Source: Erythrobasidium yunnanense
Taxonomy: Eukaryota; Basidiomycota; Cystobasidiomycetes; Erythrobasidiales; Erythrobasidiaceae
Reading direction: 5' to 3'
NCBI GenBank assembly: GCA_001600175.1
Contig: BCJC01000002.1
Location: forward strand, 3,197,111-3,261,110
DNA length: 64,000 bases
Part shown: positions 12,013 to 50,204 of the stretch, in pieces
How the letters are laid out: the number at the start of each line of letters is the position of its first letter
Numbering within the stretch: position 1 is the first letter of the stretch
The notes under the pieces: model-generated
Databases searched by the model: none
Seen by the model: the letters and a program-made list of their open reading frames with translations, nothing else
What the model was told of the DNA's origin: nothing
Made by a program: the position numbers and the translations under genes

Positions 12013-12547
12013 CTTCAGGTCGAGATTCGAGGCTCTTTGGTTTTCTTTGCGGATCCTTCGAGCTTAATCTGAAAGCCGTCAAGCAAAGCCTTTGCTATGT
12101 CAAGGAGAGTGGAGCATGCTGTGCTGTGTAGCCCTCGAATGCATTCGAATGCAAGCTTCGGCCGGAGACAGACCTGTCGAGCTCCCATCCCGCTGTGATA
12201 AGCATGGCTGACGCACACGGACCACATATACGTAACGCTGATGCATACCCCAATCCATAGCAGTTCTGGCTCTGCTGTCTCTACCTACCGCAAGCGTTTC
12301 AATGCAGGAACACATCTCCCGGCCAAACAGCACGAGCGAAGACTGCTTGATTGTCACTTATTTCTGAGTTATCCACAAACACGCAATGACCAAATGGAAA
12401 ACTTTCTCGCCAATGTCCTACAGATGCCCATTCACGCAGAATTTGCTAGGTATCCCGGATGGATGCCTAAGAGGTAAGCAAACTCAAAGACACCCCGTTG
12501 CAAGACTTCAAACTCCGTCCTTATCCTTACGTTCCGACATCGACGGT
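12013..12547. promoter_or_regulatory. Divergent promoter region of KRE2-like and SUR2 genes
   Basis: About 535 bases between two start codons facing away from each other. The right half (from about 12310) has a second, degraded copy near 34.5-34.7 kb, where it still lies upstream of a SUR2 first-exon remnant. An open frame in phase with SUR2 runs back to 12386, so an N-terminal extension is possible but not expected for the family. A GGTAAGC near 12473 could be a leader-intron donor. Confidence 0.45.
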
Positions 12548-28531: not shown

Positions 28532-30508
28532 CGACGGGTACACGTAGACTCCGATTCCTTGTCTTATTTTAGGTCTTCGAAATAGCCTTGTGCGCAAAGG
28601 CCTGCTCGCCGCAAGCCGCGATGGCTTTTGTTTATGAGGATCTCGTGGTAGGCACTTGGCGTGATGCTAGCTGGAAACGGACGCCTCAAGACCTACTCGG
28701 GTATATTTGATATGCATGACCAGCAAACAATGTGCGAAGACTAAATTATTAAGCCTCCGAAATACCAGGAGGCGCATTATTTAGAGCCCCGGATCTGGAG
28801 ACGAAGCACGGCTGATCCGGTGGACAACTCTGCCTGACGAAGCTCAAGTTGAAGGCGTCTGGCTAAATATTCATACATCAGTATAACCCGCCTTGGAAAG
28901 CTGTTGCGGATCGACTTCAAATGGCCCGACCATCCTGTGGTTCTAGCTTAAAAGTACTGAGATTGGCTACCATCAAATATACGGAGGCTCGAGACTGTGC
29001 TGTACATCATCGCTGTATCCTGGATGTGCAAGTGAGCATGCCCGAATGCCAGACCTCTGCCTAATTTCGTAGGCTTACTCAAGTATCTGTAAGGTCATCA
29101 GTAGTATAATGCTACGTTTCCCTCCATACTCCCACGGCCCGTCACGGTGTCATGCCGAAGCGTTCGATCGGCAGCTGGACATCTTCAGGTGTCATTCAGA
29201 CCATATAGGCAATTTTGCAACTTGCTCATCTGGCAATCGTGATGAGGGTCGAACAGACCTACGCAAGAGCGCGATCCGACCTTTGGCCCCTTCTTCGCGG
29301 TAAAGCAAGAAAAGAAGCCAGTTATTTTCTTCCACCCTTTGGCCCGCGCCCAAGCGAACATCTCCACCTCTTAATACAAATTGAGGCCATCAGCGACATA
29401 TCCTTCGAGCTATCCTTACAGAAAAAGGGAAGTCTGCTAATCTTGCGACAGATGAGGCGTGCCAGAATACAAGGACGCTATGGCTTTACGTTGCGCGAAC
29501 AATTATCGCACCGCACAGCATTTTTTTTGTTCTACTGTTCCCTTGGACGAAGCCAAGATTTATAGCTTCGTTGATGCTCTGTTGGTCTTTCCGGGCGTTC
29601 TCCCCTGCTTTCTCTACGCGTTCCGTGAGTGCGGAGACAAGATTTGTGAGTATCCATCGTTACAACTATTTCGAGCGCAGTACGCAGACAATGCAAACTT
29701 TCCACTCCATTTCCACGGCCGCATAGCTGACGGATACCGCTCAAAGCTTGAACCAGAATGGCTTACCTTTGGCTCGGAATGTCGGGGCCTGCTTACGGGG
29801 CTCGTATCGGTTTTAGCAACGGGATGTGTGTCTGCCCATCGACCACATCTTTCTTGCTGTTAAGAAGCATCCCGCTGGCAGACAGGCGATTGGCTAGCAA
29901 GAGTAACCTAGGCTGACCTCACTTAAATCGTCGAATCTTTCCACTATTCAAGATGGCCAACACGTAGCAGTACCATCAGCGGCTCGTACGGTCCTACGTT
30001 TATTTGCATTCACAAAGCAGGCTGTACTATGCTTCTCGCTTTTAGCATATGCATCCTATCAAGCTCAGGCATGCGCTATGTTTGACTAGACGCAGTCTCT
30101 AGAGCATGATGGAATGGCGCGCATGTCATCCGTGCGTAATCGCGAAAAGCAGCAGAAGATTGTTATATAGGGTAGGAAGGCCAGATGGGTCCCTGGATGT
30201 AACGAGCCATAAAGTGTCCCTTCTATCGCATAAAATCTGTTCATAAACTCCCAGGAATCCAAGCATATGCTGTTCTCGCCGCTTGCGCGTTCGTGATATA
30301 CTGTCGGGCTCGCTGCCCCATTCGAGTGCGATCTTTGATCAATTGTAAGCTGGCGAAGCTCTCCTCTCGTCTTACACTACTGAAAGTCATCCCATTTCGA
30401 TTCGCAGTAAGTGTGTGTGCTCATCTGCCCGCCGCCTCTTGCTTTCGCTCAATACAGTCATCTGCCCGAATCAGTCTGTACATCCCCAGACTCGGCACGC
30501 AATAAGCC
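28532..30508. other. Gene-poor 2-kb spacer, duplicated nearly unchanged
   Basis: No gene is supported. Open frames at 29215-29565 and 29459-29863 (plus) overlap, have no recognised domain and no plausible splice junction joining them. They are preserved at 44.9-45.5 kb, but this is expected because the whole spacer is about 99% identical there. It contains the 3' end of the PPP1R37-like gene and the presumed promoter of the HELGH-motif gene. A non-coding transcript is possible but not shown. Confidence 0.5.
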
Positions 30509-31920
30509 ATGAGCACATTCACTCAGTCCCAAGGTCCTTGCGCACCATTACCAGACCTCCCGCTGGCGTCGACTCCTCTTCACGATGCTAAAGGCTTCGT
30601 TCGGAACGTCTCAACTATCCTGCCTGGGCTGGTAGACAAGGTTTTCCAATGGCTAACGTACGCACTGAGATCTTGTGGCTTTCCCTGATACTGCATGCTG
30701 ACGTGCTTGCTTCCGTAGTACCGATGACCCCAATCAGGCCTTATTCGCCAGAGAACTACAATGGGCCTACGTGCAAGTTATGGACCGATATGACAAACCC
30801 GACACTACATACGGTGATATCAAGTCAGATAGAACCGAATATCGTCAATGTCTCGAAATCGTCAGGATCACCTTCGAGGCTCTCCGTCATCGATGCAAAG
30901 TGGTTCTTACCGAAGTAGATCGTGACCTACATCACGCATTCGTCCCTAAGAACCACGATCATGCAAAAAGCCCAGTTCTCTACGTTACAACAAGTTTGCT
31001 AAACATGCTACAACGGGCGCCGACTAAAGAGCAGCAGCACCATCTGCTGCTCTTCCTCTTCATAGCAATTTGTCATGAACTAGGGCATCTTACCGGTCGG
31101 TTCGTAAGTCTTGTTCCAGCCAGCCAACGTACTCGCTGATCTATGTTCTTCAGCTACATGGTCCGACCTTTGTAACCCCGATTACGAAACGAAGCAAGGT
31201 CAACTCCAGAGCGCCATACAAAGGTGCACAGCAAATCGGCGACGGAGGAGAATGCATTGAACTGGCGGTCTTCTATGATGAGCTGTTGCATATCAGCGTN
31301 CCTGAAGACGGTCAGTCTTGGCAATATGAACCAGCGGTATGCAGAAGCTGACGAAGGCTTCCTCTATGATTGTAGNCGCAGATTTGAGCTCAGCTTTCCG
31401 GATTNGACGTGCTTCAGANCTCGCTTATCTTGACGATGCGCATGTTCAGCAAATCAATAGCATNCTTTTTCGGGGCGAACGAGTACGATTTGGACAGCTC
31501 TTTCTATACGTTCACTTCCAAAGCCAGAGTACAGGTTTTCTTCCATNCTTCATCGAGGAGGCGAGACAAAGGCTGGCCCTCGGAGTACCCACATCGCAAC
31601 CCGCACCGTTCAGCAAGTTCTCCTCCTACGTATCATTCTCGCGCGATTCTTCCACAGCAANTGCCGGTGTACCATCTTCTTCAGCTATTCCGTCAAACTC
31701 GGAAAATCCTTCAACCCCTCCCACCCACGGTTCAAGACAAATAGAAGCTCGCAGTACTCGCGACTCGCCTGTACTGCTCGGCGCCTCTGTACGGACCCAG
31801 GAAACCCCCCTACATCGTCATGGGCAACGTAAGGAGCATTCTGAGGACTCGCTTCTAGCCTTTTCGGTAGAGAAGTTGGCTCTCGTCAACGAGTCCTACC
31901 AAGAACACCGCGCAGCCTGA
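30509..31920 (+). CDS. HELGH-motif protein, putative zinc metallopeptidase (copy A)
   Basis: I do not recognise a named family. Exon 1 is 30509-30657 (MSTFTQSQGPC to FQWLT) and exon 2 starts at 30719 (TDDPNQALFARELQWAYVQVMDRYDK). Exon 2 contains LLLFLFIAICHELGHLTGRF; HELGH fits the HExxH zinc-binding consensus, and GDGGECIELAVFYDEL about 45 residues on offers a third-ligand Glu. Further introns lie near 31100-31154 and about 31311-31375. The C-terminal half (DADLSSAFRIGRASDLAYLDDAHVQQIN and on) becomes Ser/Pro-rich. Compared with copy B, a 2-base difference near 31908 changes the C-terminus to EHRAA and stop. Seven N bases fall inside. The protease role is inference from one motif. Confidence 0.5.
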
Positions 31921-31929
31921 CGTTGATGT

Positions 31930-32567
31930 ACCACCCAGCGGGTGTACAATGCGTCAAGTAGAAACTAGGCCGCAGCTAGTGGCGCTGTTGACGACTGATG
32001 GGGCTCATCTGGAGTGTTTACCTCACTTGGAGCAGCAAGTCGCCTATGCTTTCGATCCAGCCTTGCCGGTCAGTCAAGTCTTCAAGTTTTACTTACTAGC
32101 GTAGGCTAAAGAAATTTTGTTCAGGCTGTCAATGTTTGGCAGACTTCAGGCAACGCTTCAGCGCTACGCATTATCCAAACTCTCGCTTTCGGTCAGACAG
32201 GTCTCGATCCACATGATGTACACGGCAAGTCAACATAAAGACTGTTTTAGGCTCCTACGCTGATATGTTGCTACCAGAACTGCTTCTGTCTCCTTCAAAG
32301 GATGTTCTGTTCGCTACAACTCGAGGTGTACAGAATTTGTCTTCTGGCAGCATCTTTGCCTGGCTTTTGGACAACACGGCAACATCACCGCAAGGCGTTG
32401 ATCCAATGCATTACACCTTCGAGACCACTAGGGCTTGGAACTTCTCCATGGCGACTTCGCCGCAAATACTGGATAACGGGCAAGTGACATTCGAGGTCTA
32501 CAATCGGACCGACGACTTCTACCAGACGTTGATTTTCACACCGATGGTCGGCTTTGAGGAGCTCTAA
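31930..32567 (+). pseudogene. Coding fragment, possibly the 3' part of a lactonase/cyclase-like beta-propeller gene
   Basis: A coding-like stretch continues past copy A. Two short introns can be proposed (about 32070-32125, and a GC-AG intron about 32226-32260 with donor GCAAGT), giving HLEQQVAYAFDPALP, VWQTSGNASALRIIQTL, DMLLPELLLSPSKDVLFATTRG and a tail ending TLIFTPMVGFEEL. The LLLSPSKDVLFATTRG segment resembles a blade of fungal carboxy-muconate-cyclase/lactonase propellers. I found no matching 5' part, so it is listed as a fragment. It could instead be an alternative C-terminus for the preceding gene. Family call is weak. Confidence 0.3.
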
Positions 32568-32864
32568 GGAGATCGAGGATTTTCAAGCTTCTCAGAACTT
32601 CTGAGAGGCTGATAGCTGCTTATTTCGTATTGTCCACCTTTCGTCTCATTGACGCCAGGTATCACGTTATGTTCTGATGACAGACTTAAGCTCACTCGCG
32701 CAATATTTGCATTTAGCCACCCTTTTGCCGGCACGTTGTAATCCTCACACAATTGCTTACTAGAATTGCATATATTTACAGCCATCTTTCCTTCCCATTT
32801 CCATTTCAACATTGTCAACATTGTCGAAGATATACTATATACTATATAGGCAGACTAACTTCTG

Positions 32865-33640
32865 ATTGACAGCTTGCAGTTGATCGAGCCAAGTCTTTGC
32901 TGGCACATGCGATACGCAGGCTGTACCACCTCTCCAAACTTGGCATCCGCTGTTCGGTCGAAGGTCGGTTCTTGCTGTATCCGAACACGGTCCCATCGCG
33001 CATAACATTGGATTGATCTACGTGAGATGTCGTCGGGCACGACTTTCTTGGGCAGGTGGTGCAGAGCGTGAAGCATGCACAAATGAAACTGAGAGAATGT
33101 AGTCCAAGGTTTTGGCCAGAGTTTACTCTGGCTGCTATAGTGAGAGTACGAAAAGATATCTAGATCAAGTCCGGTCCTTCTGTAAAACCTCTGTGACAAC
33201 GCCAGGTGGGTGAGGCCTTCAGTAACACAACAATGTCCCGAGGCTGAAGATCGTACGCGTTGGAGAGAGGCTTTGTCGGGAGCGGATCTAGCATCTGCTG
33301 ACTTCCTGGCTGCCTCAAGCCGCACCCCGAGGCTTTTCGAGGCGGTAGATGATGGAATTGTGTCGAGTGTAGCAGCGCTCTCGGTAGGTCTAACACCTCC
33401 AGCAAGTTGGTGCGGCTAAGCCCTTTGAGCAAGTCGGGTCAAGTATGCTTGTTGAGATTGACGCCGAGCAGTCCTGCCTCAAAACCACTGCCTGCATCTT
33501 CCTTCATTAGTTCGACTTGATCGTACGAAGAATCGCACAAATACGAGGGTTGATTCGTCGCCTTCTCGGCGATTCGAGTAATCTGAAGAGATCGTCGAGC
33601 GGGATCCAGTAGCTGGTACACTGCGTAGATGTGCTTATTA
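32865..33640 (-). pseudogene. Decayed 3' part of a phytochelatin synthase gene
   Basis: Read leftward, this matches the C-terminal half of the intact phytochelatin synthase at 49.4-50.2 kb at roughly 75-80% identity. Recognisable pieces are SYWIPLDDLFRLLE (intact gene: SYWVSLEDLFKSLE), the EAGLL..N.NKHT stretch, QQMLDPLPTKPLSNAYDLQ (intact: QHMLDPVPTKLLSNAYDLQ), LLKASPTWR and RIQQEPTF. The frame is interrupted: a stop follows NKHT (about 33440) and there are shifts, for example near 33160-33190 and between the LRTIKS and EAGLL parts. The catalytic region is not found next to it. It is not a working gene. Confidence 0.85.
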
Positions 33641-33979
33641 CACCGTAGAAAATTGATAATGATATTTCAGTAACCACTGATGAAACGGGCATGTTCATCT
33701 GGTTTTGATGATATATAGTAAGCGGTCATGATGGCATAGCAGCTCGTTAGCGAAGTTCTGAGAACTGTCCCCTGGAGCGCGAAAGTCGTTTCGTACGCCG
33801 TGCAAGTGTTGTAGCATACACAAGTGCATTCGCAGCCTTCAGCAAATGCTTTTCAGAAATGCTCGTTGAAGCGCGCTCATGAGCCAAAAACGCCTAAGTC
33901 GAAACTCGACTCTGGGCTTTCTTTCGCCAACTCGCCCATCATCATTATTTGGATTTGCGTCATGTCAAAACGGAAGTAC
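33641..33979. other. Spacer between phytochelatin synthase and SUR2 remnants
   Basis: About 340 bases with no recognised gene. It should correspond to the central (catalytic) part of the phytochelatin synthase if the remnant were colinear, but I could not see the expected TGDGHFSP or DVARFK segments on either strand. No terminal repeats were seen at its edges. Confidence 0.4.
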
Positions 33980-34695
33980 GTAGGTAACTCACATAGCCAA
34001 CACCAGCTGTAGCGTAGGCCACACCCACCAGTAGATGAGCGGAGCCAACTCGGAGGGAGGTGCATACGTGCCTTTCAGGCCAAAAGCACGTAAAGAGGCA
34101 GATAGAGTTTGAACTGCGTATGCATGTTTGGCCAAGCTGGTCGATTATTCGACTTGCCAGTACATGACAGCTATGCCGAGCATTGTTTGCAGGGCTTGCT
34201 GGAGCACAACAGAGCGGATGACACTCTTGAGAGATACCTTGTTTCGGCTCTAATCGGTTGGAGCCTCGTGAATACGATAGCGTTCGATGCATGGAGACCC
34301 GAAATATCAAAAAGATGGAAGAAGCTGGCAGACAGCCGATAGACGCCGATCGGGGCCAAGAGCGAAAGATACTTGTCATCAAGTGAGCTGAAAAGTCGAG
34401 GCCGCGTCGAGTAATAGACAGGCAGTTCTGCTCGCAGAGCATACTGGCAGAGATCAGCTTGGGTAACAGTGCTCATACTGTCGAAGTCGCAACAGAAAGA
34501 TGAGGACGGAGTTGAAAGCCTTGCAACGAAGTGTCTTTGAGTCTGCTTACCTCTTAGGCATCCATCCGGAATACCTGGATCAGTAGGACATTGGTAAGAA
34601 AGTCTGCCATTTGGTCATTGCGTGTTTGCGGACAACTCAGAAGAAGTCACAATCAAGCAGTCTTTGCTTGTGCTGTTTGGTCGGGAGAGGTGTGC
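33980..34695 (-). pseudogene. Decayed copy of SUR2 first exon and its leader
   Basis: Minus-strand sequence matches 12,310-13,040 of the intact SUR2 locus: leader from the CCAAACAGCAC stretch, the start region MSTVTQADLCQYALRAELPVYYSTRPRLF, KYLSLLAPIGVYRLSASFFHLFDISG, and then shifted pieces corresponding to the LAEHAYAMQTLSASLR region. The match stops close to the first exon/intron boundary of SUR2. There is a gap of about 25 bases in the leader relative to the source, an internal gap after FDISG, and the reading frame is lost there, so only an N-terminal stub could be made. The three histidine clusters are absent. Confidence 0.85.
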
Positions 34696-34714
34696 TGGCT
34701 TGATACGCTTCAGC

Positions 34715-35084
34715 GAAATAACACTTTCCCCTCATCTGACTCGAAAGCTATGCATGATGGTGGTCGTGGTCTTTTGTAGAATGAAGGTAATGCTGAGGGA
34801 GGTGTCATGATACCAGTCGCTGCAGACATTGGCGAGATGCCATCTGACAAGAGTGAAGCAGGAGGAGGAGGAGGAGGAAGTGTGCTGGTACTGGCTACAG
34901 GTTCTGCCATCGTAGCTAGACTTCTACTTTGACTCGTCGCCAACGGAGGCATCCGATGAGTTGCTGAAGTGCTGGCCAAGCGTGAACGCGGTCGAACCGG
35001 ACGATGATGGGCTTTGACGGTAGCGGCAGCTTGACAGGATTTGCAGAATGAGCGTGAGATCTGTGAAGCAGTATCCTTGAGCAT
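34715..35084 (-). pseudogene. Truncated 5' part of a phytochelatin synthase gene
   Basis: The minus-strand frame from the Met at 35084 (MLKDTASQISRSFCKSCQAA) is nearly identical to the N-terminus of the intact enzyme at 48307. It runs to AFESDEGKVLFR, where the next codon is a stop at the join with the SUR2 remnant. About 120 codons remain; the catalytic Cys, His and Asp are all missing. DNA from about 34.92 to 35.25 kb is close to 99% identical to 48.15-48.48 kb, far higher than the 3' remnant. It is divergent from, and 108 bases away from, the intact arrestin start. Confidence 0.88.
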
Positions 35085-35192
35085 GTAGGGTGGGATTTTG
35101 GTAGGAAGACAAAGGCCAATTGTTCTGTCAGGTTCTGTCTCAGACCTGATCTTTGGCCACCTCCTATTCCTGCTGATGCACTGATTGCAGTC

Positions 35193-37246
35193 ATGGACCA
35201 GCTCAGCCGGCGGGACACTGTGTACCAGCAGTTGGGGCAGATCACAGATGCGATAAGGCAAGGGAATCAGGAGGGACGGACTACTAGTTCATCTATATCT
35301 GGATCAGCGTCATCCTCGTCCATCCAGCAAGCAAACACCAACATCAACAGATACATAGACCGCGTATCAGGACAGCTGCAGAATGCAATCAATCAACAAG
35401 GGAGTGGAGTCAACAATCAACGAGCACCGGCAGCAGCAACCTCCATATACGCAGCTAGAGGACCAGTCTCAGCAAACGCAAGCTACGAGGGTCTTCCTGC
35501 TTCAGGAGCAGCAGCAGCAGGAGAGACTCTGCCAGACTATGCACCTCCCCAAGCATCACAGCCCATCACCTACCTCCACAGCTTGAAGAGCAACACAGGA
35601 AAGCTAGAGTTGCTCATCGAAAGCGTAGGCTCGAAACAGTATCCAGTATACGTTCAAAACGTCTGTTCCACAGTCGCGGGAAGGGTATGCTTGCGCACAC
35701 AAGGCGATGAAACGATCACAGAGGTCCGGCTACGGGTCAAGGGTGAGCAAATCCCAAGGAACACTGTACAGGGCATGACTGAAGTGTGTCCTGCAGGAGT
35801 TGTTACTACAGCTGTAGTGAGAGGTAATCAGAACGCGCACAATAGGGTTCTAGCAGAAGAAGGTCAGCCGTTCATTCATGGCCCGAAAACTAAGCTTCAC
35901 TGATGCTGATCTCATCACATGCAGAGGAGTTCTGGTATTCAAGCAGTCTGCTATGGTCTTCAAGTCAGCCAGGATCTGCCCTCGATCCTCTCAAAGAATC
36001 CCATGAATTCCCATTCTCAATCAAGATACCCGATGTCGCTCCGCCAACACCGAGAATCCGTAAAGAGTGTACGTGTAAATGTATCGAGGTCAAGCTTGGC
36101 ATCGCTGACATTCTCCTTCCCCGCAGCACCCATGCCGCCCAGCTTCATCTTGCAGCCTGGAGCTACTTATGTCAACGGAGGTATCGAGATAGCTACCATT
36201 AGATAGTAGGTCCCAGCTTCTCTGTCGGGAAGATCGTGCGCTGAGACAGCGATACAGCTACGTCAAGGTCACGTTGGCCCGTAAAGGTCTCCTGAGGCCG
36301 AACGAACGTCTCTTCGCGCCCATTGTCTATCTCACGCGCGAGAAAGATCTATCCTTCCTTTCCATGCCAAGACGGCAAGCCCTGGCACAATCTATACCGC
36401 TACCAGGACCGACCCAGGCTCCGGATGCCTGGCAAGGCAAAGTAGAGGAAAAGACGTACAAGTCAGGCTTCTTCACCTCTAAGAAAGAAAGCTTTAAGGT
36501 CACGCTTCTGCTCCCCACGCCTCTCATATATGGCAGTAGGCATATTCTGTCCACAAAGCATTGCAGTTGGCAGCTCGCTGATGCACTTTCCACTGCAGAG
36601 ATCGAAAGCATACCATATTACATACGTATATCCTCGAGCGATCGAGCGACTATTGACAAACTCGGAGATTCCTCCTTCTTGTCGGTCAATCTGATGCAAA
36701 GGTGCTGTATCGGTAAGTCGTGCTTATATAGATGAATGATCCCAAGAGCTGGATGCTGATTTGGCTCGTTCTTGTAGTCTCGCAAGGATCGTATGGAAGT
36801 CAAGACAACATCATGAGCAAATCACAAGCGGAAGAAGTTACAGCTAGCGAACCCTCCAGCACCTCGGCAGAACCAGCTAGACGTTTCAAGGGTGTTATAG
36901 ACATCAAGATGGCAGTCGGCTCAGCTGTTTCGTTCACGAGCTTGAATCTTGAGATTTCGGTTTGTGCCGGCTACGTTGACAGACGGTACCGGAGGCATGC
37001 TAATGTGAGCTTTCGCAGTTCTGGGTCGTCTGCTATTCCATGGAGAAGGGCCTGGTACGCGATACACTAGCAGCTATACCCGTCAAGATCGTCAGCATAC
37101 CGCCGGCAGCCCGACCTGCACAGAATACAGCCCAAGGTCAGACAGCACCTGCAGTACCGCCACCAGAGATGGAAGATCTACCGCCAGCGTACTTTGATAT
37201 AGTCGAAGCGAGGCAGTCGGGTGGGCAAAGAGCCGAGAAGAGCTAG
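35193..37246 (+). CDS. Arrestin-like protein
   Basis: Spliced gene for an alpha-arrestin-type adaptor. The N-terminal 120 residues are Ser/Ala/Gln-rich with a helical start (MDQLSRRDTVYQQLGQITDAI). The arrestin core begins LHSLKSNTGKLELLIE and includes TQGDETITEVRLRVKG, HEFPFSIKIPDVAPPTPR, PPSFILQPGATYVNGGIEIATIRY and VKVTLARKGLLRPNERLFAPIVYL. The C-terminus has EMEDLPPAYFDIV; PPAY fits a PY motif that would bind a Rsp5-type ubiquitin ligase. Introns lie at about 35743-35923, 36070-36140 and 36207-36260. Likely role: linking membrane transporters to ubiquitination. A decayed copy of its 5' part lies at 47.8-48.2 kb. Confidence 0.85.
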
Positions 37247-37452
37247 CAGGGCGGCCTCCTGTGAACATTCGAGCGTTTGAAGCAGCAGTAGAGACCTGAT
37301 GGCACGTAAGATGGGAAAACGAATGTTGTTTGTACAATGGATAGCCAGCCATTGGCATAGTAGAAGGATCCGCTAATAGTGATGTAGCCTAAGAAATACA
37401 GAGAAAGTGGTATGATCTATGATGAAGGAGCTCTGTATATAATAGCGATTGT

Positions 37453-38949
37453 CTACACTTGAGAGTATGGATGGGTGGGATGAATACTGTCCCCGGAGAT
37501 GGTTGTTGTATCCTTCTCGTTGTCGATCTCTTCCTTCTCCGGAAACTCGTCTACAGTACTGTGCGCTGGCTTCTCGTCTAAGCGGCTTGCAACATGTTGA
37601 CTAGCGGAGCCTTGAGTTGCCGTTACCATTGATACATTTGGATCTTGTCGCTTGAAGGTATTGAGACTGATTCCATGCACAATGTTTGAAGGTAGTGATA
37701 GAGACTTGACGGAGGATGCCGACGCGGCGGTGTGGACGTTCAAGACAATACGGCATACCTGTTCGGAATTGCATGAGACGGTGTAAAAGATAGGCAGGTA
37801 AGAAGGAGTAGCTCACAGATATACCCTGTAAGGCGCACGCAAATGAGCATAGTAGGATACGGTTATCCTCAGGGGGAGTGAGTGCGTAATTGATCTAGTG
37901 TGCAGTCAGTCTTTATGCTTATTGGCAAAAGAACCCAATGGAGACTTACGATGTTCGCGCAATTGGCGACCAGCGCCAAAGCGTAGAAGAGAATGGAGTC
38001 GCGGGCAATGACAGCCATCAATGTGGATCTGGCACCCTTCCTCCAGTTGTTGACGGTCTTGAAGAGAGTAAGGAAGAGTACGACAAGGTCGAAGATCAAG
38101 GGGCAAACGTCTGCGAGAATAGCGATCTCAGCAGGGAATAAAGATCATGTTTGAATCCACTTACAGAAGAGCCAATAGTGCTTTGCACCACCGGCGATGC
38201 ATGCGTGTACTCCGCTCGGTAGCTCGACCCGATGGTTGCTTTGAGGATTCCAGAACTGCACTGCAGCCTATTGATGATCGTCAGCACACGCTCTGGAGAA
38301 GACTGAAAGAATGCATTTATAACTTACTTGAGCAATGATGAGTGCACTAAGGACCAGCAACTAATCAGCGATATATGACAACCTCACTTTGCTTACACTC
38401 ACACCAGACCACCAAGAACGAACTTGTTCTTGCCCCAGATTGCGTAGACACGCATGGAAAGAATGTAAGAACCAGTCCTGTATAACTTGTCAGTGTGGGA
38501 TTTGCAAGCTGATCTCTCGTTTTACTCACAAGTACATAAAAGGAGGATAGAGGAACTCGAATCTGAAGATCTTCCCGCATGCCTCTGGACTCTTCGGCTG
38601 TCATAGTGTTACGAGTGTCAGCTTGCCGCCCCGTGCCAGTACTTCGGACCGCGTACCCAGTATAGAAGGTATTCCACGACTGCTAGCTGCACCATCACGC
38701 CGTAACGAACGACAAAGAAGGCCAAATCCATGATTGTAGGTCTTCGCTTCCAAATGTATCGGTATTCGAGGTTGAAAGTGGTGAGCCAGTCCCAGACAGC
38801 GACGCCCAAGCAGACTGCAAGAGCGCATTAGGCTGAGATAGCTTGACCAGTCGTATCGAGTCAGACACACCAGCTGTCAGTAACCGACTCTTGTTCATCA
38901 TGGTTTCATAGGTTTTGTAGAGCTCGAACTCCGCCAGTTCAGCCGACAT
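37453..38949 (-). CDS. DUF6533-type multi-pass membrane protein
   Basis: Start MSAELAEFELYKTYETMMNK at 38949. Across the first intron the frame reads VCLGVAVWDWLTTFNLEYRYIWKRRPTIMDLAFFVVRY, matching the DUF6533 pattern (D-x-L-T-T..E..YIW....-x-x-FF..RY) found in a large basidiomycete family of membrane proteins. Later exons give further helices, including TGSYILSMRVYAIWGKNKFVLGGL and others near 37.9-38.3 kb. The C-terminal 95 residues are hydrophilic and acidic (DEFPEKEEIDNEKD) and probably cytoplasmic. The family is often described as receptor-like, but no ligand or partner is known to me. Exon borders in 37.8-38.4 kb were not all resolved. Confidence 0.75.
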
Positions 38950-39520
38950 CTTGAGGTTGTCGCTTGCTTGTTTACGAAAGAGGGTAGTATAGACTGGTTG
39001 TTGTCAGAAATAAAATAGTGAAAGGCAGTAGGACAGCAGCAGGAAAGGGAGAAGAGCAGCAGTGCGAGCAGGCCAGTCAGGACTAGGGGTCTGAAAGGTG
39101 AGAAGACAGGAATGGGCAGGTGCTCGAGCGAGCTTCGAGACCGAAAGCCTCTGAGGGCAAGCGTTTCTGTGAGCTAGGTTGGGCTCGTCCGGCTTCCGAA
39201 AAGTGCCTATCATTCGTCAGGATTTCTTCCAGAGACCTCGCACAACTGTCCGGAAGTCAGCCCTAGCAGTCTTTGCCGCGAAAACAAACAGTCTAAGCTG
39301 GCTGAAAGGGTATTACGGGAGTGTTTGCAAGTCGGCCATTTCACGAAGTTATCGGGGCGCTGCCGGCAGCTTTCTTGCCAAGGCCATCGACAAATCAGCT
39401 GTCGGAGAAGAAACCAGAGGCTTTGTTGCGGGACATCCGACACAGGTCATCATGATGACACATTGCTACGAACGTGCCTAGCCGTTGCTTTCGGTCGTAT
39501 CGTATGCGTTCGATTTGTGC
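38950..39520. other. Intergenic region
   Basis: About 570 bases between two minus-strand genes: the promoter of the DUF6533 gene plus the 3' end region of DUS3. Short frames on both strands show no recognisable content. Confidence 0.5.
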
Positions 39521-42080
39521 TTAGGCACAAACTGGAACTCGGGTGCTGTTTATAATCAATAGACATGCATCAGTATCATAATACAGAGCCATGCTTCTCG
39601 ACTGACGCGGCGGTCCCAGGAACATTGAGGAGATCTTGACCCAGTCTGCAGCATTTCCACTTGCCAGCAGAGTCTGCAACGAGAACAATACCTATTAGGT
39701 GGAATGACAGTGAGAGGCATGATGCGATTGGGCATACTTCTAGATCGTCTCTCCCCTTGAACGGATAAGGCCGATCATTCAACCTGGCCGGTAACGTTTC
39801 GAGAAGACCGACTGGCACATAGCGGTATGTGAACGACAAAGCTTCGCAGAGAAAGCGTCTTGTGTTGTTTACTCCCATAGTATCGCTACCCCAGTGCTCG
39901 AGTCCGTATTTAGCGAGGTCGCCAATCATGTCCAACCTTTCACGAGACGAGATATCCCAATCTCGGCGTTCTTTGAGCTCTGTAAAGAGCCAAGGCTTAA
40001 TGAGTGCACCTCGAGCTACCATAATGCCGTCGACTCCGGTCTCTTCCACATTCTGCCAGTACGAGCGATGATCATAGGCGTCCCCGTTTCCGAAGATTGG
40101 AATAGAAGGTACTGCATAATAGTACTGATCAGAGTCGGATTTGGGAGACTATACTGTATCTCACCGTCGATCTCTTCTGCTGCTCGCCTCAGTTCACCAA
40201 CACAGGTGCGGATATAGTCATAGTCTGCTGATTTGGAATACCGCTGCTGCTGCGTACGCCCGTGGATCTGTTCTGTGGGTATAAGCTGACTCGTCTAGGT
40301 CTATAGACATGCTGAATGCGCACCGTTAGTGCTCCGACTCCCCAATCCTTGACAGCTCGAGGCATGAGCTTGTGTGTTGTATTTACACCCGTCTTGATCC
40401 CTGTCCTCATCTTGATAGTGATAGGAACGTCTCCTGCCGCAAAGCTCATTCCCTTGAGGATCTTGCCCAGCTTTCCAGCATGATCCAAGAGTGCTGATCC
40501 TGCTCCCTTTTTCACAACCAGGTCGATTGGGCAGCCTAGATTAACGTCGATAAAGTCCAAGTCTGACACCTCCTTGCAGATTGCCTCGGTAGCTGCGACC
40601 AGAGTTTGAGGACGATTACCGCATAGTTGGATGCCAAACTTGCGTTCGCTAGGATGCCTGCGGATCAATGACCACTCGCTCTTGTTTCCTGTTTGGAACT
40701 CTTGCGCCAGACCCATCTCTCCGCATGTGATATCTGCACCGTACTGGACGCAAAGACGCCTGAATGGGAGGTTGCCAACGGTTGTTAGCGGAGCGAGGTA
40801 TAGACCACCTTCGAAGTGGAGACGCTTCTTCTCAACAGCTCGTAGAGGTACGTCTCGTGTGTCACGATTTGCAGAGGAGACATCGACCGGGTCATGGATA
40901 CCAGGTCGAGAAGAGGTGTCCGCACTATCTTGAGGTGGTTGTGCTGAATAGTCTCCAAGCTCCGCCGGCTTAACATCTCCTAATTGAGCATCTGACTCTG
41001 GCTGATTTGCGTCTCTACCTGCCCACCCTCCATCTCTGCCGCGCTGCTTTCCACCTCGACCTCGTCCGCGGCCACCTCTTCCTCCTCTCCCACCTCTGTC
41101 TTGTCCGCCAACCCTGCTATCTACAGGCTCGCCAATACTGTTTAGATACGCCTTTGTTATGGGAGTCGCATCACTCTTAGCGTTACGGACACGCCTGATC
41201 GCATCGCTTCCAACCACATTCATCTCGCCTCTCAGGTCATACACCCACTTGAGCCGCTCTTCCTCGCTTGTCAGGCTTGCAGGCGCTTTGCTTCGCAGCT
41301 TCTCCAGATCCATCGCTAGCGTTAATCCCGTCCCTTGAAAGCCTTCGCCCTCTGCATGCTTGAGGAGATGTGATGATAGGAAGCGACATTTGAAGCCGAA
41401 GGGGCATAGTCCAAGCTCGGTGAACAGCTGTCAAGAAACGTCAGAGGCGCCAATACGCGATTGTCAGCAAGCTTACGGGGCAAGGGACAGGATGGGAAGG
41501 TGCATCTGGTCTGCTAAGTATGATATCGTCTTGCTTATTGTCCGCAAGATACTGAGCCAGATCATGTGAGAGATTGCAAGGCCGTTCGACATTGGTTTTT
41601 TCAGGATGAGTTGAGCATTCAAGCCCTCGAGTAGTAGCCAAGCATAATCTTTCACCATCGTCGCGTACTCTTGCAAACGTTCGGCCTTTGTTCATGCCGC
41701 CGCCTTTCTGCTTTTTACGAGGAGGTTCTTCGTTGCTTCTGCTCAAGTCGGAGGCTTTTTCGCCTGGCTCTGCTCGACCTTCAGCTGCATCATCGTCGTC
41801 TATTTCCTTTGGCGCTGATAGCTCTCCATCGTTGCCAGTCCTTGCGCTGCTGCTTCCACTAGGGTTCACTCGGTCCCATAGGACGAATCTGCGATGTCCA
41901 GATCAGCTTCAACTCCTTCAGACTATCTGAGCCTCCTCACTCTGATTTGATAGGTGCAACATTGGCTCGTGTCGACCAGTAAGGTGCACCTTCGACCATC
42001 GTACGGAAGCAAGAAGCCAGCAGACCTTTAATTGGAATGACAACAAGCTCACATTGAAAGCAGGGCTGCCTCCTTCCCAT
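39521..42080 (-). CDS. DUS3: tRNA-dihydrouridine(47) synthase DUS3
   Basis: Flavin enzyme that reduces U47 in tRNA. Exons read leftward from a probable start at 42080 (MGRRQPCFQ), then [16 protein letters not shown] joined to FVLWDRV, a disordered basic stretch, and CCCH-type zinc fingers ([27 protein letters not shown]; then [16 protein letters not shown]). The catalytic barrel contains [55 protein letters not shown], the FMN-site region [19 protein letters not shown] and [17 protein letters not shown]. The C-terminal helical part ends [22 protein letters not shown] with a short tail. An RGG-rich insert ([13 protein letters not shown], about 41.07 kb) lies between the zinc fingers and the barrel. 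The first exon and the last intron are my best choices, not certain. Confidence 0.92.
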
Positions 42081-42519
42081 TCTGCATGCCCTGTAGGCAT
42101 CAAATACTCAGTTCGTCGTTGAAATTGGCCAGCTACATATTATACAAGGCACGGAGGCTTAACGCCGCCACAGCATCCTGATTCATAGGTGAGTAGTTTC
42201 ACACCGTACATGGATATAAGAATGTGCTCATCCACCAGGTGATTGAGCGGTCGGTGCGATGACTTCTCACCTACTACAGCCGATTTTAATCGGGGCCGTG
42301 CAGAAGCCTTCATCGACTAGTTAGCTAGCCCCGTATGGTACCCACAAGCAAGTCTGTCCCTCTCCTAAGCTGGCAAGGCATCCATAATGCCAAAGAGAAG
42401 ATGGACGGGAAGGAAGGTCAGTATAACACGATTCACAGGCCTATCGCTAGAGCTGACTGGGAGCAACTTCCCCTCTAGCCTTCGCGAACCTGGAGCGAGT
42501 CGTCAAGAGCGCTGAATCT
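42081..42519. other. Intergenic region up to the left edge of duplication copy B
   Basis: About 440 bases with no supported gene. It contains the DUS3 promoter. Recognisable similarity to copy A begins at about 42.52 kb; I saw no repeat or target-site-like duplication marking the junction. Confidence 0.45.
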
Positions 42520-44203
42520 GATCATGCAGAGCGTATCTGGGGTCGTGTGGCTTTGACGAGCGAGCGAGACGCACTGAGACATGCCGAACCTAAGATTAGG
42601 CTCAAGAGACAGATAGAGTCGCTTTCTCGAGTAGGCGCACCGTCGACACTCGATATCAGGAGCAATGATATTCCACGAGGCGTGTCGTACATAGCTCAAG
42701 TTCTCAAGAAAAATCGACATTGAAGATCTTGAATCTCAGCGATAATCGGATAGACTCGCAGGCTCTGCTGGGTATAGCAGAAGCGCTCGTATGTACTGCA
42801 CATGCTGCTGCTCTCGCTTGAAAGCCAACCTAATCATTCATTTAAAAGAAATACAACTCCACTCTGGAGACTCTAGACCTATCAAACAACCCTTGTTGCG
42901 GACCCCCGCTGGAAGGCATCAATACCCTACGCACCGCATTTGCCATCAATACAAGCCTGAAGCGGATTTTCTAAACAACACGGAACTGTCCTCCTCTGGT
43001 GCCATCGCCTTGGCTGAGTTCTTGCCTGACGTACAGTCCCTGATTCATATAGACATGACCGACAATCCAGACGTGAGCAATGTCACTACAGTCTCCTACC
43101 TGCCAGCTAACATAACTTGTCTCCCAGCTCGACATCGCCGGCATCATGGCTCTGGCCGCTTCAGTTAAGCTCAATCGGACCATTCGCTGTCTGGACCTCA
43201 GTATTCCTCCCAACGATCCAGAATTTGCTCGTCTGTCGCAAGACATCCTTCAGTCCTGCATTCGGAATACAGAGCTAGCTCAAGAGCAGTCACTCGCCAA
43301 AGGTGCTAAAGTTCCAATTGCAGCACCGATCTACAAGTATGGTCTTGCAAGAGACCTCAAGGAGCTCGAGCAAGCACATGCATCTGCTTTGACGCAGTCT
43401 CAGGGCACTCCAGGTTGGGACGATGTGATCGCATCAGCCCGCAGTTGCATCGAGGCTCTCACAAACATGCTAGATGCCGAGGAAGAGTCTTTGCGGCACG
43501 ATCCCTCTCATGGAGACAACCAAGCTCGTGCTCGAGTACTCGCGAACGCTCAAACTCTGGAGAAGCAGCTGTTGGCGGCTCTTTCGAAATTGGATGCATC
43601 CGATCTAACGCAAAGGCCAGCTCTCAGGCATTTGCAAAGACAACTAGCAGATCACCTTCGTAGAGCAGGAGCCGTATCGACCGACGGCGGTGAACAATTT
43701 CGCTACCTACTGGCGAGCAGACGCTGCTCTCGCCTCTGATTCCAATCCGATCGCCGGTCTCGCCAACTCCTCAATTACCCTCTCCGTCTTTCTCCGAGAC
43801 TAGCTCCGACGACTTCGACTCTGATTCAGCGGACGAGCGATCCAGCAAGAAGGGTTCTACTCCGCCAGTATCGCCACGCAAGGCAAGAGGCAGACCAGCT
43901 TCGCTTAAACTCCTTCCTCGGACAGCAGTCGCTCTATGGACGTCACCAAAGTCGCCTGTTGAGAACCAGTCTCGCACGCTTACGCTCGAAGAAGGCGAAG
44001 TTTCCCGAAGAGGAGCTTCGAGGATCGGCGAAGATGGCCGAAAAACTCTTCTTGGCGTTCTTGATGATGACGAAGCTGGAGAAGAAATCAAGCAGGAGAT
44101 TTTGGAGGTAGAGGTCAAGCGGACAAGGCGGACAACTCTAAGCTTGAACGATACGGATGATCAGTCTCACGGAGCTGAGCAGTCGGCACAAATTGGTGCA
44201 TAG
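42520..44203 (+). pseudogene. 5'-truncated copy of the PPP1R37-like leucine-rich-repeat gene
   Basis: Corresponds to 26,860-28,531. It lacks the first two thirds, including the RVxF motif and the first repeats. Damage seen: early lesions around 42.60-42.72 kb (a stop in place of the NRTLKVL segment), a stop after LKRIF near 42.97 kb, and a frameshift near 43.70 kb that ends the longest frame at 43739. Nevertheless 43,146-43,690 keeps a long frame almost identical to the parent (IRCLDLSIPPNDPEF, ASARSCIEALTNMLDAEEES). The identity is patchy, with a fully matching stretch flanked by diverged sequence, which suggests gene conversion after the duplication. Confidence 0.88.
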
Positions 44204-46180
44204 CGACGAGTACACGTAGACTCCGATCCCTTGTCTTATTTTAGGTCTTCGAAATAGCCTTGTGCGCAAAGGCCTGCTCGCCGCAAGCCGCGATGGCTTT
44301 TGTTTATGAGGATCTCGTGGTAGGCACTTGGCGTGATGCTAGCTGGAAACGGACGCCTCAAGACCTACTCGGGTATATTTGATATGCATGACCAGCAAAC
44401 AATGTGCGAAGACTAAATTATTAAGCCTCCGAAATACCAGCAGGCGCATTATTTAGAGCCCCGGATCTGCAGACGAAGCACGGCTGATCCGGTGGACAAC
44501 TCTGCCTGACGAAGCTCAAGTTGAAGGCGTCTGGCTAACTATTCATACATCAGTATAACCCGCCTTGGAAAGCTGTTGCGGATCGACTTCAAATGGCCCG
44601 ACCATCCTGTGGTTCTAGCTTAAAAGTACTGAGATTGGCTACCATCAAATATACGGAGGCTCGAGACTGTGCTGTACATCATCGCTGTATCCTGGGTGTG
44701 CAAGTGAGCATGCCCGAATGCCAGACCCCTGCCTAATTTCGTAGGCTTACTCAATTATCTGTAAGGTCATCAGTAGTATAATGCTACGTTTCCCTCCATA
44801 CTCCCACGGCCCGTCACGGTGTCATGCCGAAGCGTTCGATCGGCAGCTGGACATCTTCAGGTGTCATTCAGACCATATAGGCAATTTTGCAACTTGCTCA
44901 TCTGGCAATCGTGATGAGGGTCGAACAGACCTACGCAAGAGCGCGATCCGACCTTTGGCCCCTTCTTCGCGGTAAAGCAAGAAAAGAAGCCAGTTATTTT
45001 CTTCCACCCTTTGGCCCGCGCCCAAGCGAACATCTCCACCTCTTAATACAAATTGAGGCCATCAGCGACATATCCTTCGAGCTATCCTTACAGAAAAAGG
45101 GAAGTCTGCTAATCTTGCGACAGATGAGGCGTGCCAGAATACAAGGACGCTATGGCTTTACGTTGCGCGAACAATTATCGCACCGCACAGCATTTTTTTT
45201 GTTCTACTGTGCCCTTGGACGAAGCCAAGATTTATAGCTTCGTTGATGCTCTGCTGGTCTTTCCGGGCGTTCTCCCCTGCTTTCTCTACGCGTTCCGTGA
45301 GTGCGGAGACAAGATTTGTGAGTATCCATCGTTACAACTATTTCGAGCGCAGTACGCAGACAATGCAAACTTTCCACTCCATTTCCACGGCCGCATAGCT
45401 GACGGATACCGCTCAAAGCTTGAACCAGAATGGCTTACCTTTGACTCGGAATGTCGGGGCCTGCTTACGGGGCTCGTGTCGGTTTTAGCAACGGGATGTG
45501 TGTCTGCCCATCGACCACATCTTTCTTGCTGTTAAGAAGCATCCCGCTGGCAGACAGGCGATTGGCTAGCAAGAGTAACCTAGGCTGACCTCACTTAAAT
45601 CGTCGAATCTTTCCACTATTCAAGATGGCCAACACGTAGCAGTACCATCAGCGGCTCGTACGGTCCTACGTTTATTTGCATTCACAAAGCAGGCTGTACT
45701 ATGCTTCTCGCTTTTAGCATATGCATCCTATCAAGCTCAGGCATGCGCTATGTTTGACTAGACGCAGTCTCTAGAGCATGATGGAATGGCGCGCATGTCA
45801 TCCGTGCGTAATCGCGGTAAGCAGCAGAAGATTGTTATATAGGGTAGGAAGGCCAGATGGGTCCCTGGATGTAACGAGCCATAAAGTGTCCCTTCTATCG
45901 CATAAAATCTGTTCATAAACTCCCAGGAATCCAAGCATATGCTGTTCTCGCCGCTCGCGCGTTCGTGATATACTGTCGGGCTCGCTGCCCCATTCGAGTG
46001 CGATCTTTGATCAATTGTAAGCTGGCGAAGCTCTCCTCTCGTCTTACACTACTGAAAGTCATCCCATCTCGATTCGCAGTAAGTGTGTGTGCTCATCTGC
46101 CCGCCGCCTCTTGCTTTCGCTCAATACAGTCATCTGCCCGAATCAGTCTGTACATCCCCAGACTCGGCACGCAATAAGCC
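44204..46180. other. Gene-poor spacer of copy B
   Basis: Partner of 28,532-30,508 with about 99% identity by eye: I counted roughly fifteen scattered base differences and no insertions or deletions. No gene is supported in it. The block includes the presumed promoter of the second HELGH-motif gene. Confidence 0.55.
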
Positions 46181-47708
46181 ATGAGCACATTCACTCAGTC
46201 CCAAGGTCCTTGCGCACCATTACCGGACCTCCCGCTGACGTCGACTCCTCTTCACGATGCTAAAGGCTTCGTTCGGAACGTCTCAACTATCCTGCCTGGG
46301 CTGGTAGACAAGGTTTTCCAATGGCTAACGTACGCACTGAGATCTTGTGGCTTTCCCTGATACTGCATGCTGACGTGCTTGCTTCCGTAGTACCGATGAC
46401 CCCAATCAGGCCTTATTCGCCAGAGAACTACAATGGGCCTACGTGCAAGTTATGGACCGATATGACAAACCCGACACTACATACGGTGATATCAAGTCAG
46501 ATAGAACCGAATATCGTCAATGTCTCGAAATCGTCAGGATCACCTTCGAGGCTCTCCGTCATCGATGCAAAGTGGTTCTTACCGAAGTAGATCGTGACCT
46601 ACATCACGCATTCGTCCCTAAGAATCACGATCATGCAAAAGGCCAGTTCTCTACGTTACGACAAATTTGCTAAACATGCTACAACGGGCGCCGACCAAAG
46701 AGCAGCAGCACCATCTGCTGCTCTTCCTCTTCATACCAATTTGTCGTGAACTAGGGCATCTTACCGGTCGGTTCGTAAGTCTTGTTCCAGCCAGCCAACG
46801 TACTCGCTGATCTATGTTCTTCAGCTACATGGTCCGACCTTTGTAACCCCGATTACGAAACGAAGCAAGGTCAACTCCAGAGCGCCATACAAAGGTGCAC
46901 AGCAAATCGGCGACGGAGGAGAATGCATTGAACTGGCGGTCTTCTATGATGAGCTGTTGCATATCAGCGTTCCTGAAGACGGTCAGTCTTGGCAATATGA
47001 ACCAGCGGTATGCAGAAGCTGACGAAGGCTTCCTCTATGATTGTAGACGCAGATTTGAGCTCAGCTTTCCGGATTGGACGTGCTTCAGACCTCGCTTATC
47101 TTGACGATGCGCATGTTCAGCAAATCAATAGCATACTTTTTCGGGGCGAACGAGTACGATTTGGACAGCTCTTTCTATACGTTCACTTCCAAAGCCAGAG
47201 TACAGGTTTTCTTCCATACTTCATCGAGGAGGCGAGACAAAGGCTGGCCCTCGGAGTACCCACATCGCAACCCGCACCGTTCAGCAAGTTCTCCTCCTAC
47301 GTATCATTCTCGCGCGATTCTTCCACAGCAAATGCCGGTGTACCATCTTCTTCAGCTATTCCGTCAAACTCGGAAAATCCTTCAACCCCTCCCACCCACG
47401 GTTCAAGACAAATAGAAGCTCGCAGTACTCGCGACTCGCCTGTACTGCTCGGCGCCTCTGTACGGACCCAGGAAACCCCCCTACATCGTCATGGGCAACG
47501 TAAGGAGCACTCTGAGGACTCGCTTCTAGCCTTTTCGGTAGAGAAGTTGGCTCTCGTCAACGAGTCCTACCAAGAACACGCCGCGCAGCCTGACGTTGAT
47601 GTACCACCCAGCGGGTGTACAATGCGTCAAGTAGAAACTAGGCCGCAGCTAGTGACGCTATTGACGACCAATGGGGGGTATTTACGGCAGTCACAATATA
47701 ATTTTTAG
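46181..47708 (+). pseudogene. HELGH-motif gene copy B, probably inactive
   Basis: Same exon plan as the copy at 30509. One base is missing near 46,640 (within the HAK-SPVLYV region of copy A), which shifts the frame and closes it at 46,673. Downstream, the motif His codon is changed (CAT to CGT at about 46,745), so HELGH becomes RELGH, which would destroy the first zinc ligand. The C-terminal exon is in better shape than in copy A: it has none of the undetermined bases and continues through EHAAQPDVDVPPSG to a stop at 47,708 beyond the duplicated block. Together this suggests that copy B lost enzyme function, while its 3' end keeps the ancestral frame or was newly formed at the junction. Confidence 0.7.
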
Positions 47709-47779
47709 CAACTCTGATCAGCCAACGAACGACTGCTCTGACCATACCTTGCTAATATAAGGACGTCCGAACTTCCGGA

Positions 47780-48198
47780 CGAACATGAAATCGATGTATT
47801 GGCATTATACAAGCATATCACTGCCAAGCAGACGTTTTGGCCGTTATACAGACGGTGTGCACAGTCTGGCAGAGTCTCTTCTCCAGTCGCATTGGTAGAT
47901 ACAGCGAGTATTGAGTTTCCTGAGACCGATCTTCTTGCAGCATATATTGAGGCGGAGGTGCCCGTTGGGCTTGCATTGAGAGTGCCTTGGTGATTAGCGA
48001 GGAGCTGTCCTGATACGCGGTCTATGTGTCTGTTGATGCTGGTACTCGCTTGCTGGATGGAGGTGGATGACGCTGATCCAGATACTGTATAGATGAACTA
48101 GCAGTCCGTCCTTCCTGACCTCCCTGCCTTAAGTTTATTGCATCTGTGATCTGCCCCAACTGCTGGCACACAGTGTCCCGCCGGCTGAGCTGGTCCAT
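47780..48198 (-). pseudogene. Decayed 5' part of an arrestin-like gene
   Basis: Minus-strand sequence from the ATG at 48198 matches 35,193-35,700 of the intact arrestin gene: start region MDQLSRRDTV, the Ser-rich segment, the CATCAACAGACACATAGACC stretch, AGAGACTCTGCCAGACT and CAAAACGTCTG. A small insertion after the GCAATAAA region (about 48,125), a large internal loss between AGACTCTGCCAGACT and CAAAACGTCTG, and truncation before the arrestin core show that it is not functional. It shares a start region with the intact phytochelatin synthase. Confidence 0.85.
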
Positions 48199-48306
48199 GA
48201 CTGCAATCAGTGCATCAGCAGGAATAGGAGGTGGCCAAAGATCAGGTCTGAGACAGAACCTGACAGAACAATTGGCCTTTGTCTTCCTACCAAAATCCCA
48301 CCCTAC

Positions 48307-50204
48307 ATGCTCAAGGATACTGCTTCACAGATCTCACGCTCATTCTGCAAATCCTGTCAAGCTGCCGCTACCGTCAAAGCCCATCATCGTCCGGTTCGAC
48401 CGCGTTCACGCTTGGCCAGCACTTCAGCAACTCATCGGATGCCTCCGTTGGCGACGAGTCAAAGTAGAAGTCTAGCTACGATGGCAGAACCTGTAGCCAG
48501 TACCAGCACACTTCCTCCTGCTCCTCCTGCTTCACTCTTGTCAGATGGCATCTCGCCAATGTCTGCAGCAACTGGTGTCATGACACCTCCTTCAGCACTA
48601 CCTTCGTTCTACAAGAGGCCTTTACCACAATCATGCATAGCTTTCGAGTCGGATGAAGGGAAAGGCCTGTTCCGCAAAGCTATGGCGGAAGGAAACATGG
48701 AGAACTACTTTGCGTTGGCTCAGTCCTTCCTTACCCAGAATGAGGTGTGTTGCTTCTATTGCTGGGCTATCATGTATTCTTGCTGACTGCAGTCGCCTTC
48801 ATGTAGCCGGCATATTGCGGCTTAGCAGTGAGTACCCTGTCTTGCCCAAGGTCGAGCCGAACTCATCCACGTACTCTTCCGTTGACAGACTCTCTGTATG
48901 ATCCTAAATGCGCTAGGGGTCGACCCGCAGAAGCAGTTCAAGGGACCCTGGCGGTATTACAGCCAAGAAATGCTAGAGTGCGTAGCTTATTCCTCTCCTT
49001 CCTCACAGGAACACTCACTGATCTATGCGACTCACAGCTGCTGCCGGACGCTCGAGGATGTAGCTGCCAGCGGCATCACCTTGGCTGAATTCGCATGTCT
49101 GGCAAGGTGTAATGGCCTTCATGAGCATACCCGCTACGGAACAATGGTGACCATTGAAGAGTTTGAGCGCGACATCGAGCGAGTGTGCGGAAGAGATGAC
49201 GGAACTGTCATGGCTATATCGTATTCGCGCAAGTCGCTTGGCCAAACTGGCGATGGGCATTTCTCGTGAGTTTTCGATGCTTAGACCCTGTTATAGTACT
49301 GTATTAAAGCCTTCTTTCGATCTGCAGACCGATCGCTGGGTACTGCAAGGCGGAGAAACGGATACTTGTGCTCGATGTCGCGCGCTTCAAGGTGACTCAT
49401 ACTTTAGATGGGCCGTTACCTATATCATTTCGACTAACAAGTGCACACTCGCAGTATCCTAGCTACTGGGTATCGCTTGAAGATCTCTTCAAATCACTCG
49501 AGCCCGTCGACAAAGCGACAAATCAGCCTCGCGGCTACTCAGTCCTTCGCACCATCAAGTCGACAAAGCTCACATCAGATGCAAGCAACGGTCCTGAGGC
49601 AGGACTGCTCAGCCTGAATTTCAATAAGCATACCTGGCCCGACTTCCTTAAGGGGCTCACGTCCATTCAACCCAGCCAGCCGGCTGAGGTAGTCTCGTCC
49701 ATCGTCAAGCTGCTGCATTCGAAGCAGATCCATCCTCTACAATCTCGTAAAGCTCCGAGAAGCGATCTGGAGCAGGCAGAAAGTCAGCACATGCTAGATC
49801 CTGTGCCGACGAAACTGCTTTCGAATGCGTACGATCTTCAAATTCGAGAACTGGTCACCCTCGTCAAAGCATCACCGACCTGGCGTGTCATTACGGAAAC
49901 TTTACAGCAAAATCCCTCTCCCTTGTTGCATACCTCGTCATACCCTCAAGCTTTGGAATACATTCTCTTCCTTTCTTCACTTCTCACTTCGCGCTCTGCA
50001 CCATCTTCACTGAGGAATGCCTGGCGAGATCTTACTTCGACAGACTCTACGCTGTCTGGGATAGGCAACGGCCGGATACAGCAAGAAACAACGTTCATTC
50101 AGCATCAGATGGCAAGCTTGGAGAAGTGTTGTAGCACAGAGAATGCCTGCGCATGTGCGGGCAAAGGCTTGTCTGGATCAAGCTGTCAAGTCATCGGGAA
50201 TTAG
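48307..50204 (+). CDS. Phytochelatin synthase (glutathione gamma-glutamylcysteinyltransferase)
   Basis: Family C83 papain-like transpeptidase that makes phytochelatins from glutathione for binding Cd and other metals. SFYKRPLPQSCIAFESDEGKGLFRKAMAEGN matches the start of the plant enzyme's domain. Exon 2 (48807-48827) is 21 nt and encodes PAYCGLA with the catalytic Cys. Then TLCMILNALGVDPQKQFKGPWRYY, MLDCC across an intron, GITLAEFACLARCNG, and the His and Asp of the triad in TGDGHFSPIAGY (intron inside) and RILVLDVARFK. YPSYWVSLEDLF completes the domain. The C-terminal part is divergent and ends Cys-rich (CCSTENACACAGKG). N-terminal choice: 48307 adds a Ser/Arg-rich, nearly acid-free leader that could target mitochondria; 48481 (MAEPVAS) is the alternative. 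Confidence 0.93.

Follow-up and report, generated by a model that had tools for sequence, protein, structure and literature searches.

The 64,000-nucleotide stretch of the Erythrobasidium yunnanense genome analysed here (assembly GCA_001600175.1, contig BCJC01000002.1, positions 3,197,111 to 3,261,110 of the forward strand; hereafter the window) carries, in two places, a divergent pair consisting of an arrestin-like gene and a predicted phytochelatin synthase (PCS) gene, and a different member of the pair looks intact at each place. At 35.2 kb (locus A), the arrestin-like gene is intact-looking and the adjoining PCS gene is broken by an insert and by frameshifting gaps. At 48.2 kb (locus B), the PCS gene is intact-looking with its full PF05023 domain, and the adjoining arrestin is a frameshifted fragment. 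At both loci the two genes stand head to head on opposite strands, with 108 bases between the chosen start codons at locus B. A previous sequence-only reading had described this arrangement, which our gene models confirm, and had explained it by reciprocal gene loss after the duplication of one ancestral pair.

The split gene pair and its two loci

The window has a GC content of about 51%, and the splice models of its genes require short introns of about 60 nt. Its self-comparison yielded three duplicated blocks: the direct repeat R1/R1' (94.9%), an inverted repeat across the head-to-head gene pair (34724-35377 against 48664-48003, 93.5% over 665 columns, E printed as 0.0) with weaker extensions at 33194-33625 and 32880-33112, and an inverted match of a part of locus A to a hydroxylase-like gene. 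The inverted gene-pair repeat is not a chance match, and the duplication is real as assembled. The features are listed in Table 1.

The PCS gene at locus B spans positions 1-210 of 210 of PF05023 (E=1.2e-85), i.e., the full catalytic domain, and aligns to the cyanobacterial Alr0975 (residues 106-309) with the AYCG, GH-SP and DV-R-KYP motifs lining up; by domain and motifs it is a predicted phytochelatin synthase. We take three of its residues to form the Cys-His-Asp catalytic triad. The start codon is our choice, and the frame is open further upstream. The PCS gene is copied to about its stop codon; position 48744, given in the sequence-only reading as the end of the region, is the end of exon 1, and the gene continues to 50204. 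The arrestin fragment beside it carries a 5-nt frameshifting insertion, and its match to locus A stops abruptly at 35544/47857, with the final 26 nt still 92% identical (35519-35544 vs 47882-47857) and nothing clear beyond. For the filler that follows, no counterpart was found in the window at E up to 0.5.

The arrestin-like gene at locus A is modelled with five GT..AG introns of 52-65 nt, one of which becomes 67 nt with another donor, so that the product has 585 aa or, with the alternative splice donor, 582 aa; the sole stop is terminal. It matches Arrestin_N (PF00339; E=6.2e-07, 30 bits vs the Pfam cut-off of 24.9). Arrestin_C was not matched in Pfam, where the only other hit was FANCL_d1 below its cut-off, and there was no match in NCBIfam or, at E up to 1, among solved structures in the PDB. 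An AlphaFold model of exon 4 from one sequence (pLDDT 41.8) was too poor to use. Near the C terminus, the sequence LPPAYFDIV contains a PPxY motif, presumably one for Rsp5-type ligases.

Codons 1-123 of the PCS gene at locus A still share 95% protein identity with the copy at locus B over 124 columns (tblastn). They are followed by an insert comprising upstream DNA, exon 1, the predicted intron 1 and exon 2 of a hydroxylase-like gene, which we take to be SUR2-like; the related gene at 12.4 kb matches FA_hydroxylase with exons 1-3 joined (E=1.2e-12). At E up to 0.5, nothing else in the window matches the stretch of 33626-33986. Because of this insert and of the last exon behind it, with its 68% identity, 11 frameshifting gaps and differences of 0.26/0.23/0.46 at codon positions 1/2/3, the PCS gene at locus A is dead. 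Pfam searches with the individual open frames of R1' and of the gene remnants gave no match.

Table 1. Features of the two loci and of related or neighbouring sequence in the window
Feature	Position	Strand	Basis or remark
PCS gene at locus B, intact-looking, six exons, 529 aa, Cys-rich C terminus	48307..50204	+	splice model; Pfam
Arrestin fragment at locus B, codons 1-117, frameshifted	47858..48198	-	sharp end at ~47857
Filler of ~180 bp between R1' end and arrestin fragment	47677..47857		unmatched in window
Arrestin-like gene at locus A, intact-looking, six exons, 585 aa, PPAY motif near end	35193..37246	+	splice model; Pfam
PCS at locus A, codons 1-123, still open, then broken	34713..35084	-	tblastn of PCS from locus B
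Copy of 5' half of hydroxylase-like gene inside PCS at locus A	33987..34710	-	81% to 12292-13038; exon matches
Stretch between hydroxylase-like fragment and last PCS exon	33626..33986		361 nt, unmatched in window
Last exon of PCS at locus A, decayed	32866..33625	-	68% identity, 11 frameshifting gaps
Core at locus A, shared promoter region and both 5' coding ends	34860..35256		99% complementary to 48135-48531
Core at locus B, inverted	48135..48531		matches core at locus A
R1: 3' part of leucine-rich repeat (LRR) gene, frame-poor stretch, part of HELGH-motif gene	26866..32003	+	self-comparison; Pfam LRR; open frames
R1': direct copy of R1	42541..47676	+	self-comparison; open frames
Putative SUR2-like (fatty acid hydroxylase) gene, approximate model, related to insert in PCS at locus A	12386..13607	+	Pfam; exons
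Dus3-like gene between the two loci, approximate, single copy in window	39576..41902	-	Dus E=3.8e-28; open frames

Near-identical promoter cores

The two loci are most alike at their centres. The cores, inverted and 12,878 nt apart on one sequence as assembled, have in common an exact run of 345 bp that covers the promoter and both 5' ends, a length reached in 0 of 2000 shuffles, and their flanks diverge by about 10-40%. The shuffling ignores variation of constraint along the alignment; the following contrast in dead codons is independent of it. The two loci show no difference in the 108 bases between the chosen start codons and 1/58 in the arrestin codons that are dead at locus B. The PCS codons that are dead at locus A show 0/206 differences, compared with 19/163 in the part of the exon that comes next (Fisher p=1e-7). 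The cores form an identity tract with sharp edges that constraint does not explain, as gene conversion leaves it. Selection as the cause is disfavoured, since the identity extends to codons that are dead in one copy, and a known structured RNA finds no support, with 0 Rfam matches at gathering score in 26000-52000. Dead codons could not be preserved by protein selection, and the natural reading is therefore that recent gene conversion, or another recent exchange, would have homogenised the cores.

R1 shows the same conversion-like pattern, with 14.2% divergence from R1' over 26866-28400 and 0.9% over 28401-32003 (about 3.6 kb). Its middle stretch lacks open frames of at least 150 aa; in 28401-32003, the first 2.2 kb have none of this length beyond 28531. 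R1' has its LRR part cut at the 5' side and frameshifted, has a 1-nt gap in the HELGH gene, which is cut at the 3' side, and ends abruptly at 47676, where the last 99 nt of the match with R1 are 95% identical. An open frame with the HELGH motif, which we assume to be metallopeptidase-like, lies at 30702-31139 and had no match in Pfam.

The longest exact run in R1 is 455 bp, and seven isolated single Ns stand at 31300-31661, all in R1 itself; they may be places where reads from both copies got mixed. At 345 bp in the core and 455 bp in R1, the exact runs are longer than short reads, and together with the Ns they would fit an assembler that misjoined the sequence at the core, with the intact pair standing together on the real chromosome. 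The Ns, however, are located in R1, outside the core, and we consider such a misjoin very improbable.

The cores could also recombine with each other in the living cell, which would flip the 12.9 kb between them, and the present gene order is therefore silent on which halves decayed together. One pair might have stayed intact and the other have decayed in both genes before a crossover at the cores split the partners. The inverted orientation of the cores, their distance, their long exact run and their apparently recent exchange speak for this, and by reasoning a flip on paper brings the two intact genes side by side and leaves a single island made up of the broken PCS, the arrestin fragment, the filler and R1'. 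Yet one genome gives no sign that the flip occurred, and the trans arrangement has an even chance anyway, and so we hold this history to be quite unlikely. We regard as a long shot, too, that the cores act as a standing switch, in which conversion would keep both metal-response promoters alike, so that arrestin and PCS would be co-regulated though split, and crossovers would flip the 12.9-kb segment back and forth, with strains differing in their partner halves.

Origin of the split pair

From what is observed, namely the anatomy with its sharp ends, the open frames, the broken ones and the uneven divergence, we infer a single event, together with its mechanism and the order of what followed: one multi-junction duplication in which the arrestin copy at locus B was truncated at birth and the PCS gene was copied whole, the PCS gene at locus A being lost later. 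We put the probability of this account at about 0.6. The duplication would have made three or four new joins, by template switching or inversion-associated repair, and locus B would have received a direct copy of 26866-32003, the filler of about 180 bp, and an inverted copy reaching from arrestin codon 117 to the end of the PCS gene. This inverted copy would have included the shared promoter, with the PCS gene whole and the arrestin truncated from birth. The PCS gene at locus A would then have decayed and taken in, or been broken by, the 5' half of the hydroxylase-like gene, and the promoter cores would since have been homogenised by gene conversion. If the intact-looking genes work, PCS would at present be supplied from locus B and arrestin from locus A. 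Two polarities fit about equally: locus A may be the source, with locus B as an insert between Dus3 and the gene after it, or the arrestin-Dus3 block may have been inverted and the breakpoint region duplicated. Either way it would be a local rearrangement of an ordinary, known kind, whose odd twist is that the promoter regions are still identical.

The searches for second copies bear directly on the truncation at birth. At E up to 1e-3, none of six stretches (32004-32830, the arrestin 3' part, 37247-39175, Dus3, the Dus3 upstream region and 50250-52050) was found a second time in the window, and a looser search with eight stretches (E up to 0.5) found, beyond the known repeat ends, only three hits of 21-32 nt. 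Because the arrestin at locus B ends sharply and no second copies were found in the window, an arrestin born truncated takes fewer steps than one that was complete and then lost, and probably only the PCS gene ever had two complete copies. Of the sequence-only reading, it stands that the pair is present twice and that a different intact-looking gene was kept at each locus; a once complete arrestin at locus B is doubtful, as the fragment breaks off abruptly near codon 117 and no duplicate of the remaining gene turned up in the window. Reciprocal loss of the whole pair is thus partly supported, unproven, and not the simplest reading. It would have the whole pair duplicated, a deletion taking the arrestin 3' part at locus B, and mutation or insertion taking the PCS gene at locus A. 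It agrees with the head-to-head order and the one intact-looking gene at each locus, and one deletion could take both the arrestin 3' part and the HELGH 3' end, because both cut ends face the same filler. Against it, extra steps are needed, and the window holds no trace of a second rest-of-arrestin, next region, Dus3 or 32004-32830; we judge it unlikely.

Two other origins are disfavoured. Retrocopying, named in the sequence-only reading as a possible refutation, does not agree with copies that include non-coding DNA, as between the start codons, and, in the hydroxylase-like insert, a predicted intron; the introns of the pair itself are uninformative on this point, as none lies within the shared stretches. 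A plain tandem duplication followed by inversion of copy one would, by reasoning, need an inversion breakpoint at the duplication junction.

Several points weigh against a duplication with truncation at birth. The searches covered the 64-kb window of one genome, and other copies may lie elsewhere; with one genome compared, the longer route, in which everything was duplicated and locus B then underwent a clean deletion, keeps some probability. Counting junctions does not separate the two polarities. Between the hydroxylase-like insert and the 12.4-kb gene, codon positions differ by 0.21/0.05/0.27 over 452 bases, and since these differences fall mainly at positions 1 and 3, with few at the second, they suggest that the fragment derives from a working paralogue or was one itself for a long time. 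In R1', the LRR part differs from R1 by 0.05/0.06/0.20 (27434-28531 vs 43107-44200) and by 0.10/0.13/0.32, mostly at third codon positions despite its truncation and frameshift, and it therefore appears more like constrained sequence than like a copy dead from birth. Conversion, or working donors elsewhere in the genome, could account for both patterns. Finally, divergence of 0-1% in the cores and the seven Ns in R1 leave room for assembly error.

Elsewhere in the window, a gene at 22410-24518 with a TFIID NTD2 domain, WD40 repeats and a LisH motif is presumably TAF5-like. No tRNA genes were found in the whole window (ARAGORN, bacterial code), and no tandem repeats were found in 26000-52000.

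Parallels and meaning

The proposed event has relatives in other organisms. As described in passages of PMC3355041, inversions 2h and 2q of Drosophila mojavensis have inversion-associated inverted duplications at their breakpoints, in which a segment is flanked on either side by inverted copies of originally single-copy DNA, partial genes among them, and at 2h one copy is intact and the other eroded. Inverted copies flanking a segment are present here as well, the original single-copy state being assumed; in contrast to 2h and 2q, the segment is about 7 kb long, a direct copy, R1', stands at one junction, and the cores look homogenised. In budding yeast, double-strand breaks induce inverted duplications, and parts of PMC10622511 report local inverted copying beside the break, secondary rearrangements and template switching as a possible route. 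Those events were newly produced in the laboratory and had short inverted repeats at their centre, whereas the joins here are known from the reading of boundaries only.

The sequence-only reading had added that such a split can cause hybrid incompatibility. In the divergent resolution of Mimulus pTAC14, as excerpted from PMC5896889, a duplicated gene likewise has its one working copy in a new place, and the locus combinations segregate in F2 hybrids between species. Here, by contrast, there are two linked loci in one genome, and probably only the PCS gene was ever redundant. Hybrid incompatibility has no support here and is weakly motivated, because the loci are linked in one genome; with the cores 12,878 nt apart on one sequence as assembled, they are not placed for independent segregation.

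The Cys-rich C terminus of the predicted enzyme resembles that of Sporobolomyces PCS, as reported for fungal PCS in sections of PMC4410428, which also mention a tandem PCS duplication in Puccinia graminis. The head-to-head arrestin-like neighbour and the split pair distinguish the present case, and the main text of PMC4410428 contains no word beginning with 'arrestin'. Of 16 papers found in the literature for 'phytochelatin synthase' together with 'arrestin', none of the 10 listed dealt with such a gene pair by title or abstract start, which is no proof of its absence from print.

As a warning, reciprocal loss is not readable from gene order where inverted, near-identical cores could flip. A functional link between PCS and arrestin may exist, and if real it would be of interest for metal tolerance, given that Art2 and Art8, arrestin-like adaptors of yeast, are listed in an excerpt of PMC8050425 for the endocytosis of the metal transporter Smf1 that cadmium triggers. 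If our account is true, the locus would be a compact example of a divergent gene pair split without losing either gene: the copy would have taken along the shared promoter, one gene in full and just a stub of its neighbour, and the fully copied gene could therefore be dropped at its old site.

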